A stretch of 33,580 nt of DNA, from assembly GCA_947166165.1 (NCBI GenBank), contig CAMVDK010000003.1:1-33580 (forward strand), read 5' to 3'. Numbering within the stretch: the stretch's first letter is position 1; each line of letters begins with the position of its first letter. This DNA comes from an uncultured Porphyromonadaceae bacterium. GTDB lineage: Bacteria; Bacteroidota; Bacteroidia; Bacteroidales; Muribaculaceae. Positions 6,759 to 10,323 of the stretch are shown here, one piece after another. The notes under the pieces were generated by a model. The model saw only the letters and a list, made by a program, of their open reading frames with translations. It did not search any database and had not been told where the DNA came from. The position numbers were made by a program, and so were the translations under genes.

Positions 6759-6832
6759 TGGTGGGACAGGCAGGTGTCGAACCTGCGCCTCGGCTGGGAT
6801 TAGACCGCGAGCTACCGCTGCTCCACTGTCCC
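6759..6832 (-). tRNA. tRNA-like gene with encoded CCA, anticodon not assignable
   Basis: On the minus strand a 74-nt segment folds as a tRNA. The acceptor GGGACAG pairs perfectly with CTGTCCC, the discriminator is A, and CCA is encoded. The D arm is GAGC-AGCGGTA-GCTC, and the T arm is GCAGG-TTCGACA-CCTGC with the invariant TTC. The anticodon arm is abnormal. With standard spacing it is CGGTC-TAATCCC-AGCCG, which has a T-G wobble, a C-A mismatch next to the loop and no T at position 33, and the variable loop is 4 nt. The 34-36 triplet would read ATC, but I do not trust this. It may be a decaying phage tRNA or one with an unusual expanded loop. It lies inside the early operon just upstream of recT. 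Confidence 0.65.
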
Positions 6833-7694: not shown

Positions 7695-7922
7695 TTAGAG
7701 TTTAAAATGTTTGCTGAATGTTTCAATCTTGTTGCCTTTCCAGTCCACATCGTTGTTGGTGAAAAAGGCAATAACGTCAAGTAGTTGTTTCTTGCTCCAT
7801 GCGGCGATGGGTATCACGTCGTCAAATCGTTGCACGGGCGTGGGGTCGAAGAAGAACTTCGTGCGCTTGCCATGCTTCTCGCAGCGAATTTGCGATTTTA
7901 TTTTGCGGTAGTTGATAGCCAT
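7695..7922 (-). CDS. Hypothetical phage early protein (75 aa)
   Basis: I do not recognise this family. The sequence runs MAINYRKIKSQIRCEKHGKRTKFFFDPTPVQRFDDVIPIAAWSKKQ and ends in KHFKL. An IRCEKHGK-like stretch followed by aromatic and basic residues suggests a small nucleic-acid-binding fold, but only one Cys-His pair is present, so a complete zinc site is not supported. It is part of the tightly spaced early operon (13 bp before the next gene, 11 bp after the exported protein). Confidence 0.6.
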   Translation of the reverse strand: MAINYRKIKSQIRCEKHGKRTKFFFDPTPVQRFDDVIPIAAWSKKQLLDVIAFFTNNDVDWKGNKIETFSKHFKL

Positions 7923-7933
7923 GGCGGTATTGG

Positions 7934-8233
7934 TTACTTGTTGTTGCGGATTTGGTTGAGTTTCTCGCGGTCTTCCTTGGAGAGGTAGCGCTTGACGGGC
8001 TGGCCGGCGTTCTTGCCGCTCTTGGCGACCTTGTAATAGAAGTAGCCGCCCTTGCTGCCCTGATAGATGGGGTACTTGCCGTCGCGGTCTTCCCAGCAGT
8101 AGCCGGTGGGAGTCTCGCCGGGCTTGGCTGTAGTCTGTTCGATGCGCACAGTGTTGTCGCTCTTGACGATGGTGCCGGCGGTGCAGGTGAGTGCAGCAAG
8201 TGCCAGCATGATTGAAAGGAAAATCTTTTTCAT
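7934..8233 (-). CDS. Exported small protein (99 aa)
   Basis: MKKIFLSIMLALAALTCTAGT is a clear signal peptide. The cysteine at 17 does not fit the usual lipobox (ALTC), so cleavage by signal peptidase I after about TAG is more likely than lipidation. The mature part is polar and aromatic (GYCWEDRDGKYPIYQGSKGGYFYYKVAKSGK...). The core IYQGSKGGYFYYKVAKSGK resembles short strands with a K-rich C-terminus (YLSKEDREKLNQIR). Function is unknown. An exported product early in a phage operon could affect the host envelope, which is speculation. Confidence 0.65.
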   Translation of the reverse strand: MKKIFLSIMLALAALTCTAGTIVKSDNTVRIEQTTAKPGETPTGYCWEDRDGKYPIYQGSKGGYFYYKVAKSGKNAGQPVKRYLSKEDREKLNQIRNNK

Positions 8234-8245
8234 AAGGCTATTGCT

Positions 8246-8497
8246 TTATTGGTTGTTGTTCTTGTTGCGCTTGATGATGATGGTCGCGCCGTTGTCTGGC
8301 GTGGTTACTTCAAACTCGGTAAAGCCTGCACGCTGGTTGAGGCGTGTGGACGCGCTCTTTACTGTGCTGAAAGGAGCAAAATCCACACACGATACTTCTA
8401 CAGTCGCACCCTGTTCTATGGTGAGCATACTCTCGGGAGTGTTCACCTGCGTCTCACGAATGACACGCATCTGATTTTTTTCTTGATTTTTTGCCAT
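8246..8497 (-). CDS. First gene of the leftward early operon (83 aa, unknown)
   Basis: This is the first ORF after the leftward promoter, with a leader of about 80 nt. The sequence is MAKNQEKNQMRVIRETQVNTPESMLTIEQGATVEVSC, then VKSASTRLNQRAGFTEFEVTTPDNGATIIIKRNKNN. The latter (S..tR.N...g...F.v....G..I.R) is similar in layout to short DNA-binding or anti-restriction-like phage proteins, but I cannot name a family. Being promoter-proximal it is likely expressed immediately on induction, so a regulatory or anti-host role is possible. Confidence concerns gene reality, not function. Confidence 0.65.
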   Translation of the reverse strand: MAKNQEKNQMRVIRETQVNTPESMLTIEQGATVEVSCVDFAPFSTVKSASTRLNQRAGFTEFEVTTPDNGATIIIKRNKNNNQ

Positions 8498-8547
8498 AGT
8501 TTTATCGTCTATATCAATTAAAATGTTTAACTTTGAACCCTTTTAAG

Positions 8548-8575
8548 TAAGTGAGTTGCATTGCAACGGCACTTA
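8548..8575. repeat. Inverted repeat at the start of the leftward transcript
   Basis: Outer arms TAAGTG/CACTTA and inner arms GTTGCA/TGCAAC (one-base centre) form a 28-bp nearly perfect dyad. It lies just downstream of the expected start point of the leftward promoter, so it could be an operator or a hairpin in the leader RNA. Confidence 0.6.
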
Positions 8576-8583
8576 ATTCGGTG

Positions 8584-8614
8584 CAAAGATAAGACGCTAA
8601 TTTGATTTATACAA
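8584..8614 (-). promoter_or_regulatory. Leftward early promoter (Bacteroidetes type)
   Basis: On the minus strand a TTG (8612-8614) is followed by a 20-bp spacer and TATCTTTG (8584-8591), an exact match to the Bacteroidetes -7 consensus TAnnTTTG. The start point would fall near 8577, giving a leader of about 80 nt to the ATG at 8497. It drives the long early operon. Confidence 0.7.
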
Positions 8615-8628
8615 GACTAATGTCTTAT
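8589..8628. promoter_or_regulatory. Probable repressor operators over the early promoter
   Basis: A dyad AAGAC-TAAT-GTCTT at 8613-8626 covers the -33 element. A second AAGAC half-site at 8591-8595 overlaps the -7 box. The two AAGAC words are 22 bp apart, about two helical turns. They lie in the 174-bp gap between the repressor gene and the early operon, as expected for operators bound by the XRE repressor. Binding itself is inferred. Confidence 0.55.
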
Positions 8629-8671
8629 TTTCTGCAATTTTTAAGATTTATTAACAAGACAACAGACTGAT

Positions 8672-9034
8672 ATGACTGGAAAACAACTAAAGGCAATGAT
8701 TGACGACCTCGGCATAACTCAAAGAAAACTTGCCGAGGAAATGGGTGTGACCCCACAAACTATAAGTGCAATTCTTACAGCCAAAGATGTCCGCACATCA
8801 ACTATCGAAAGAATTGCCGATGTGACAAAAATGCCTATCAGTTATTTCTTCAGAGAACATGATGGGCAAAGTGCGGTGGCGAACGGTGACGGCAGCGTGG
8901 CCGTGACTGGCAACAACAATGTGGCAGGCAACGTTACCATGGGCGACGCTGCCGTGCTTCAGGAACGCGTGACAATGTTGGAGAGGCTCCTCGAGGAAAA
9001 AGAGCGAACAATTAAAATTCTGATGCAGAGATGA
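8672..9034 (+). CDS. XRE-type phage repressor with coiled-coil tail
   Basis: This is a 120-aa protein. Residues 3-58 form a typical Cro/CI helix-turn-helix (KQLKAMIDDLGITQRKLAEEMGVTPQTISAILTAKDVRTSTIERIADVTKM). It is followed by ISYFF, a Gly/Asn/Val-rich stretch GDGSVAVTGNNNVAGNVTMGD that looks like short beta-turn repeats, and a leucine-heptad coiled coil (LQERVTMLERLLEEKERTIKILMQR) that probably mediates dimerisation. There is no LexA-like protease domain, so RecA-triggered self-cleavage is not expected and induction must work otherwise. It is divergent from the early operon across a 174-bp control region and is the first gene of a rightward operon. It likely maintains lysogeny by silencing the leftward promoter. 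Confidence 0.85.
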   Translation: MTGKQLKAMIDDLGITQRKLAEEMGVTPQTISAILTAKDVRTSTIERIADVTKMPISYFFREHDGQSAVANGDGSVAVTGNNNVAGNVTMGDAAVLQERVTMLERLLEEKERTIKILMQR

Positions 9035-9396
9035 GTCGTCACGACTATTCTGGTATAGCTTCATGTTGTGTATTCTTACTTATATTCGTAGCAGGAATAG
9101 CAATGGGCATATATTTTTCTCCCAAAAAGCAACATGCTGATAGCGAGACAAAGAAAGACTCAATAGATTGGGCGATTGAATCCAAAAAGATTGTCATCAT
9201 TTGCGAGTCAGACAGTCTTTTCCACTATTCAACGATGTGTGAAATTCTTGGTCGTTCACCCAAAATTACCATTGAACATGTTGCACGACTCAAGGGAAAA
9301 TGGATGTGCCCTATTTGTGGAATTAAGGAAGCAGAATATGTCATTCACAAAGACGAATATCTTAATGATTTGAGAAGCGTTGATGAAGATAATTAA
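9031..9396 (+). CDS. Membrane-anchored protein with His/Cys module (121 aa)
   Basis: This starts at an ATGA overlap with the repressor stop. An N-terminal transmembrane segment (SGIASCCVFLLIFVAGIAMGIYF, about 7-29) is followed by a basic linker and a C-terminal module: IICESDSLFHYSTMC, IEHVARLKGKWMCPICG. The pattern FH-x-S-x-x-C...CxxC gives one His and three Cys, a plausible zinc site. The same pattern recurs in the next gene. Such modules are found in many Bacteroidetes hypothetical proteins. Co-transcription with the repressor suggests expression in the lysogen and a lysogenic-conversion or exclusion role, which is inference. Confidence 0.7.
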   Translation: MSRHDYSGIASCCVFLLIFVAGIAMGIYFSPKKQHADSETKKDSIDWAIESKKIVIICESDSLFHYSTMCEILGRSPKITIEHVARLKGKWMCPICGIKEAEYVIHKDEYLNDLRSVDEDN

Positions 9397-9670
9397 AACA
9401 AAATATCCAATGAGACTACTATTGATTTTTTGTCTTGGGCTTGTATTATTATCTTGTTCTGACAATAAAGACAAGGTTGTAAAGATAGACATTAACACGG
9501 TGCAGATGCAAGATAGCGTGTGGATATGCACGAGCGAGAATGCAAAGCGGTTCCACGCAAGTGATACATGCGGTGGCATCTTGTCATGTGGAGAAGAAAT
9601 AAAGCAATTTACGAGAGAAGAAGCAGAACGGAACGGCAGAACTTACTGCCATAAATGCTACAAAACATGA
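9383..9670 (+). CDS. Lipoprotein with His/Cys module (95 aa)
   Basis: The ORF track begins at a TTG at 9380. I take the ATG at 9383, although ATG 9410 (MRLLLIF...) would also give a functional signal. The signal peptide ends in the lipobox LLSC, so the protein should be lipidated. The mature part carries VWICTSENAKRFHASDTCGGIL...FTREEAERNGRTYCHKCYK, with FH-x-S-x-x-C and CxxC spaced as in the preceding protein. The gene overlaps its neighbour by 14 bp and the next gene by ATGA. Both the module and the envelope location are shared with the 121-aa protein. Function is unknown. Confidence 0.7.
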   Translation: MKIIKTKYPMRLLLIFCLGLVLLSCSDNKDKVVKIDINTVQMQDSVWICTSENAKRFHASDTCGGILSCGEEIKQFTREEAERNGRTYCHKCYKT

Positions 9671-10026
9671 GCAATGACGACATAGCAAGACGCAAGTTCG
9701 ACCTGCTCATGGAGGCGGTTGAGCAAGTGAAACATCAGGACGCGGCGATGGACGAGCTTCGGCACGCAGCGTTCGAGGTGCTGCTGCTGCATCCCGGTTG
9801 CGAGCTTGAAGACTGGGGAGAGCTGCTTGCCGAGCAATACGGCACGGAACTGATAGACGCTTTCGGGAAAGACCTCGACAAGATAACCACCTCGGTCATC
9901 AAGATGTGGAAGTCGCCTTACCTCGACGAGAACAGCGGACTGGAGCGCAGCTACGAGGAATGGGCGCAGGCATTCGCCACGGAGGCGGCGGTGCAGATGT
10001 ATTACGACCTCATAACACCGACATGA
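9667..10026 (+). CDS. Helical protein of the lysogeny operon (119 aa)
   Basis: The track start at 9655 lies inside the lipoprotein gene. The ATG at 9667 shares ATGA with its stop and is preferred. The product is acidic and almost entirely helical: ARRKFDLLMEAVEQVKHQDAAMDELRHAAFEVLLLHPG, then EDWGELLAEQYGTELIDAFG and YEEWAQAFATEAAVQMYYDL. I do not recognise a family. It is soluble and lacks any visible catalytic motif. Its base composition is richer in G+C than the three genes before it, more like the early operon, so it may have a different history. It could be an immunity or anti-phage accessory protein of the lysogen (inference). Confidence 0.65.
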   Translation: MSNDDIARRKFDLLMEAVEQVKHQDAAMDELRHAAFEVLLLHPGCELEDWGELLAEQYGTELIDAFGKDLDKITTSVIKMWKSPYLDENSGLERSYEEWAQAFATEAAVQMYYDLITPT

Positions 10027-10032
10027 TTTAAT

Positions 10033-10140
10033 ATGGATTTGAACAAACGTCTAACTCGCTCACTGGCAAAACCGAATAACAGCCGCGCAGGCAGCAGTGG
10101 AAGAATAAGCGAAAAAACGCTGAAAATTAGCGAAATATGA
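10033..10140 (+). CDS. Possible 35-aa basic peptide
   Basis: An ATG ORF begins 6 bp after the preceding stop and ends with a TGA that touches the terminator stem. It reads MDLNKRLTRSLAKPN...GRISEKTLKISEI and is basic and polar. Tight spacing supports it and its small size argues against it. No family is recognised. Confidence 0.3.
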   Translation: MDLNKRLTRSLAKPNNSRAGSSGRISEKTLKISEI

Positions 10141-10179
10141 GGCAAATGTCTGGCAAACAGACACTTGCCTCACTTTTTT
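10139..10179 (+). terminator. Strong terminator of the lysogeny operon
   Basis: A 14-bp stem with one mismatch (GAGGCAA-TGTCTG with CAGACA-TTGCCTC), a 5-nt loop and a six-T run form a textbook intrinsic terminator. It closes the rightward repressor operon and marks the last clear element feature. Confidence 0.9.
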
Positions 10180-10323
10180 CTGCACATCCTGCGCATTTCA
10201 AAAAAATTAGATGGCACCTGAAACAAAAAGACAAAAATGGTTGGTCTTCCGTCGATCAGGATAGCCCCATGAAGCGGATTTCGCTGTATTTTTGCACTAG
10301 ATTTAAATACAAGTTAAGGAAAT
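10180..10323 (+). promoter_or_regulatory. Element/host junction zone with host promoter
   Basis: This stretch has no credible gene. An exact TAnnTTTG box (TATTTTTG, 10287-10294) lies 30 bp before the reductase ATG and is a likely -7 element, but no convincing -33 element is seen. The right attachment site of the element probably lies between the terminator and this box. I could not find its other copy because the left end is outside the window. Confidence 0.4.

Follow-up and report, generated by a model that had tools for sequence, protein, structure and literature searches.

Two small membrane-anchored proteins are encoded directly behind the repressor gene of a temperate Bacteroidales prophage, and both carry a C-terminal module with the conserved core H-x(3-4)-C...C-x2-C. 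The first, referred to here as type A, is attached by a transmembrane (TM) helix, and the second, type B, by a lipobox. The module of type B is predicted to adopt the fold of the Ada N-terminal domain. Judged by the position of their genes, both proteins may be regarded as extracytoplasmic cargo of lysogenic conversion, for which superinfection exclusion appears the most likely role; this reading is tentative and stands somewhat below an even chance. The genes form a defined class whose location, behind the repressor and towards the attachment site, is predictable, and they are open to direct testing.

Prophage and operon organization

The window, i.e. the whole stretch of DNA analysed, is one complete contig of 33,580 bp derived from a metagenome-assembled genome, the host of which is described as a Prevotella-like gut bacterium. 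The right part of the prophage, which belongs to a temperate Bacteroidales phage, occupies positions 1 to about 10,130. The early genes (replication initiator, SNF2-type helicase, RecT and others) lie on the minus strand and are followed by a divergent rightward operon, the first gene of which encodes an XRE repressor (Table 1). The inverted repeats located 5' of this gene constitute a candidate operator of a divergent immunity region. The four genes of the operon, successively repressor, type A, type B and a 119-aa protein, are tightly packed, with a terminator-like site behind the last of them. The DNA similarity to the related prophage G027 ends at 10133 and thereby brackets the prophage end; the genes from 10324 onwards are chromosomal (RibD-like, aldo/keto reductase, RecQ, YajC, RecN, DnaN and others, names read from the sequences). 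A tRNA-Asp gene, found by ARAGORN at 6759-6832 (-), lies within the prophage part and adjoins the RecT gene.

The two adjacent membrane-anchored genes reported in the initial annotation are real, with open reading frames at 9031-9396 (TM helix) and 9383/9410-9670 (lipobox), both on the plus strand. The overlaps described for them hold in part: the repressor stop and the type A start share 4 bp (ATGA), whereas the overlap of the TM and lipoprotein genes is probably absent. The start at 9410 is preferred for type B, since its homologues begin at the equivalent position and the DNA similarity to G027 starts exactly there. The type B gene thus probably starts at 9410 rather than at 9383; the A/B overlap then vanishes and the genes are 13 bp apart.

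Table 1. Features of the prophage right end in the window (positions are those of the window)
Feature	Position	Strand	Description and basis
Inverted repeats 5' of repressor	8586..8631		AAGACTAATGTCTT; AAGATAAGAC/GTCTTATTTT; sequence
Repressor gene (XRE/HTH_3 prophage repressor-like protein)	8672..9034	+	120 aa, first operon gene; Pfam HTH_3 E 5.6e-10, PHROG transcriptional repressor 3.8e-10
Type A gene	9031..9396	+	121-aa single-TM protein, C-terminal His/Cys module; homologues in L018, L067/L070, L069
Type A TM helix	9055..9114	+	residues ~9-28; sequence; AlphaFold2 helix 7-28, pLDDT ~86
Type A module	9190..9321	+	invariant H65 (9223-9225), C70 (9238-9240), C93 (9307-9309), C96 (9316-9318)
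Type B gene	9410..9670	+	lipoprotein with His/Cys module, 86 aa preferred (ATG 9383 gives 95 aa)
Type B lipobox Cys	9455-9457	+	lipobox LLSC
Type B module	9518..9661	+	predicted Ada-like fold; H58 (9554-9556), C63 (9569-9571), C89 (9647-9649), C92 (9656-9658)
Type B subfamily Cys	9527-9529, 9587-9589	+	C49 and C69
Last operon gene	9667..10026	+	119-aa acidic protein, function not assigned; 95% identical in prophage G027
Prophage right end	10027..10320		phage DNA similarity to G027 stops at 10133; chromosomal genes from 10324
Terminator-like hairpin	10152-10169		consensus match only

Type B is a lipoprotein, as are several relatives. A single TM helix is present in type A of the window and of the prophage in the closely related G042. 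The type A protein of the IMG/VR contig 3300012983_000059 (L069) is a lipoprotein (LLTSC). Because the chain of a lipoprotein lies outside the inner membrane, the module is extracytoplasmic in this phage and, by homology, we infer the same placement for type A of the window. The 99-aa protein encoded before the L069 type A gene was tested as a counterpart of the additional N-terminal segment seen in the G042 protein, and this equivalence was unsupported. In the type A N-terminus of G042 (L018:11747-11940), residues 9-61 match inside open frames of 5,594-5,769 aa in G042 and G103.

The shared module and its relation to Ada

A joint alignment of the A and B proteins conserves exactly one His and three Cys residues. 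The longer pattern proposed in the initial annotation for both proteins is therefore confirmed in its H/C/C/C core, but not in the first Cys of the TM protein: C58, the Cys of the "IC" motif, is replaced by Ser or Thr in both homologues of the window type A. The relatives of type B retain C49, H58, C63, C69, C89 and C92 without exception. Both window proteins contain the arrangement FH-x4-C...C-x2-C, which appears in 84 and 77 per 100,000 residue shuffles, respectively (<0.1%). BLASTP detects no similarity between them, which rules out that either gene arose by recent duplication of its neighbour and indicates that A and B are distant relatives.

The HMM comparison suggested earlier was made with a module profile (A10) from which all TM-type proteins had been left out. 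The window type A scores 14.9 bits on this profile, against a shuffle maximum of 9.0 (about 2,800 scored of 3,000 made); its two homologues fall within the shuffle tail, with 9 and 28 shuffles scoring as well. The alignment of the type A family with A10 by hhalign reaches E = 2.6e-4 and places H, C, C and C in register. These comparisons suggest a module common to A and B, the statistical support for type A being moderate.

AlphaFold2 modelling of type B with 12 phage relatives gave a pLDDT of about 95 across residues 40-95. The type A model, calculated from a mixed alignment, had a mean pLDDT of 55 and was unusable. Among predicted viral structures the type B model finds its best match in an entry named "Metal binding domain of Ada" (probability 1.00, E 2.5e-3); of the twenty matches ranked below it, several bear Ada-like or methylphosphotriester-repair names. 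No significant match to the type B model was obtained among PDB structures, where the Ada N-domain 1wpk had the top query TM-score of the matches listed (0.35) at E = 7; a profile search found nothing relevant among PDB sequences. The module profile aligns with the N-domain of E. coli Ada at E 1.1e-4, and C42, C69 and C72 of Ada coincide with the three module Cys. Ada scores 10.1 bits on the module profile, a value reached by one of 2,806 shuffles. Neither window protein matches the Ada metal-binding family PF02805 (gathering cut-off 23 bits); one distant relative of the module does so at E 0.0029.

The module thus resembles the Ada N-domain (PF02805, PDB 1WPK) in three respects; (i) the predicted fold, obtained for type B only; (ii) the three aligned Cys; (iii) the A...G..xC-x2-C ending. 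In contrast to Ada, it is displayed outside the cytoplasm on lipid or TM anchors, is accompanied by neither an AraC nor a methyltransferase domain and lies under Pfam detection. Furthermore, the four Cys ligands of Ada are not all present, as both proteins and all aligned homologues invariably have a His at the first ligand position. This His occupies the position of Ada Cys38, the methyl acceptor, and its presence throughout points to a binding or structural module rather than a repair enzyme. The module may therefore be described as Ada-like in its predicted fold and devoid of the repair nucleophile, which argues against DNA repair; the His and three Cys would bind zinc. In this way a common, unannotated module of Bacteroidota can be assigned to a putative Ada-like fold outside the cell.

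Recurrence, position and the exchangeable slot

The A+B pair occurs in the same order in the window, in G042 (L018, L067/L070, L071) and in L069. The L067/L070 loci have DNA identical to the G042 prophage and represent that prophage, and L071 very probably corresponds to the same contig; all are counted as G042, so that the independent pairs number three. The two pair-bearing phages other than that of the window are Prevotellaceae-type. Type B adjoins type A at all three known A loci and exists without A in prophage G027 (L019). Clear copies of type A, found in 2 of 397 family genomes and on IMG/VR contigs, so far come from phages only.

The module itself is far more widespread. Type B-like modules match 25 of the 101 genus genomes, and the wider module profile 35 of the 297 phylum genomes (about 12% of sampled Bacteroidota), in agreement with the earlier statement that it is common in this phylum. 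Many module proteins are lipoproteins encoded in chromosomal, non-phage surroundings, and type B is most closely related to chromosomal lipoproteins of Prevotella that share its signature RFHxSDxC...TRxxAE...CHxCYR. Phage and host copies are mixed in the tree, the well-supported branches of which force at least three switches, at the weak resolution given by few (61) columns. The abundance of host copies and their intermixing indicate that the module is not specific to exclusion. The IMG/VR loci were found with alignments of homologues as queries; scans of IMG/VR with each single window protein gave no match. Phage GenBank records contained no match for type B or for a generic module protein, and the plasmid search yielded one place in Hymenobacter, beneath a gene annotated as helicase. 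Seven of 14 module proteins match PHROG 14556 (no function given), the last ~64 positions of which correspond to the type B module region; in contrast to the module proteins, which cover its C-terminus only, this profile extends over 451 positions.

The co-occurrence survey proposed in the initial annotation bore out the association with the repressor, as the pair is present in three phages and the position downstream of a repressor in many more. According to the ORF maps, repressor and module gene share one strand, with the module gene 3' of the repressor, in the window, G042, L069, G027 (type B only), G007 and G033, as well as in L073, L074, L076, L077 and L083/L084; the same probably applies to L087/L088, the regulators of which have no Pfam match. 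A Pfam S24 or HTH domain is encoded upstream in L073, L074, L076, L083, G042 and G007; the match of the L077 regulator is weak and under the cut-off, and the 112-aa regulator of L069 has no Pfam match. The repressor-downstream position was found in about 9 of the 14 viral records searched, a descriptive count, like the others for position, since the viral loci were picked by similarity and some are near-copies. The exceptions are five viral loci, with the module gene beside lysis genes (L079, L081, L082) or elsewhere (L075, L085). In 7 of 8 viral records with an integrase match, the integrase is encoded either close to the module gene or at the other end of the prophage; the integrase match of the G042 prophage is under the Pfam cut-off. 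The G027 repressor is split between two ORFs of 62 and 51 aa (L019:3549-3920) that resemble a single 123-aa repressor of G042, which may reflect a frameshift or an assembly error.

Comparison with G027 reveals an exchangeable cargo slot. The DNA flanking it is 87-95% identical to the window, and window positions 7703-9409, containing the repressor and type A, are exchanged together as a single block; type B and the last gene of the operon are kept at 90-95% DNA identity. The replacement encodes a different repressor, a Cas2-like protein of 92 aa and a pair of membrane proteins that match PDC-M18B weakly in PADLOC (L019:2272-3472), and these Cas2-like and PDC-M18B-like genes possibly represent an undescribed prophage defence unit. 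In both G042 and L069, which also carry A and B, genes for a DUF6864-type protein and a small TM protein follow the repressor directly (L018:10934-11726; L069:3709-4354) and form a candidate conserved cargo unit. Such exchange is what one expects of an immunity or defence cassette, and the slot behind the repressor is a place to seek new prophage defence cargo. PADLOC models gave weak matches only with the two window proteins; the assignment of type A to PDC-M14A (PADLOC E 0.0076) was reproduced by no module relative and was not used.

Superinfection exclusion and alternative roles

The location of both genes directly behind the repressor suggests that, as cargo of lysogenic conversion, they would be expressed while the prophage is silent. 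A lipid or a TM helix would hold each product on the extracytoplasmic side, displaying a small zinc module of the Ada type and probably altering the surface of the infected cell. DNA and protein are both conceivable ligands of an Ada-type fold, and the displayed module might bind a component of the incoming phage, namely the tail tip, the tape-measure protein or the entering DNA. Binding would then block DNA injection by related phages, i.e. exclusion would act at the entry step. An envelope system of lysogenic conversion had already been proposed in the initial annotation. The anatomy lends it support (repressor operon, pair, recurrence, predicted type B fold), but the module is also common in host lipoproteins. 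A broader proposal regards these proteins as an undescribed and widespread surface class of Bacteroidota prophages, in which an extracellular Ada zinc fold with a Cys-to-His exchange captures incoming phage DNA or tail protein for exclusion and A+B is the two-anchor version; we hold it to be rather doubtful. To our knowledge, no superinfection-exclusion lipoprotein has been characterized for temperate phages of Bacteroidales, and none was found in the titles or abstracts of the literature searched.

The closest parallel is Ltp, a lipoprotein of the Streptococcus thermophilus phage TP-J34; its gene belongs to the lysogeny module and is transcribed in the prophage, and the protein acts outside the membrane to prevent DNA injection (PMC3952083). 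Similarly to this small lipoprotein, tethered outside the membrane and encoded near the repressor (PMC3952083), A and B are products of lysogeny-module genes next to a repressor and are anchored through a lipid or TM helix so that the domain lies outside, a placement that for type A of the window follows from homology. The differences relate to the Gram-negative envelope and the presence of two different anchored proteins. No sequence relation between Ltp and A/B is known, and the likeness is one of gene position and topology.

The strongest rival is a function in the host envelope: A and B would be captured host lipoproteins with a general role in host fitness, such as periplasmic metal handling or thiol/oxidative protection, and no anti-phage function. 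The chromosomal Prevotella relatives of type B with the same signature, the breadth of the module in the phylum and the two additional invariant Cys of the type B subfamily favour this explanation. The recurrent placement in a variable slot behind the repressor, beside candidate defence cargo, speaks against it, as does the confinement of clear type A copies to phages, and we consider it possible though on the unlikely side. Selection may also be absent altogether, the small module genes drifting as neutral passengers in a permissive slot. Their size and the nature of the slot as a cargo hot spot would agree with such drift, yet the ligand residues are invariant across divergent copies and the order of the pair is kept while its neighbours are replaced, which renders it improbable.

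Superinfection exclusion has further to be weighed against two other explanations. The membrane protein could sense the state of the envelope or of metals and inform the repressor encoded by the preceding gene, to which the 4-bp overlap and the joint replacement of the repressor and TM genes between related prophages would correspond. Such a signal input to lysogeny is quite improbable, given that type A of L069 is a lipoprotein without a cytoplasmic part, that type A of G042 is separated from the repressor by other genes and that type B is found without A (L019); metal or redox sensing, an option raised in the initial annotation, gained no specific support. A role as immunity lipoproteins, protecting from contact toxins or secreted antimicrobial proteins that other Bacteroidales produce, is suggested by a weak NCBIfam match of type B to the BSAP-5i family (NF053773, E 1.7e-4). 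This match lies mainly over residues 10-54 (signal peptide and linker), leaves out the module and, at 21.7 bits, falls short of the cut-off of 150, so that this is a very unlikely explanation.

The function of the host module lipoproteins could inform that of the phage copies. In four genomes of the genus (L091-L094), these proteins are encoded in a conserved cluster of small-lipoprotein genes. Another host lipoprotein (L100:5736-6359) contains two tandem modules, VYVTPSGNRYHVSTC... and VYITPSGKRYHRASC..., within a single chain.
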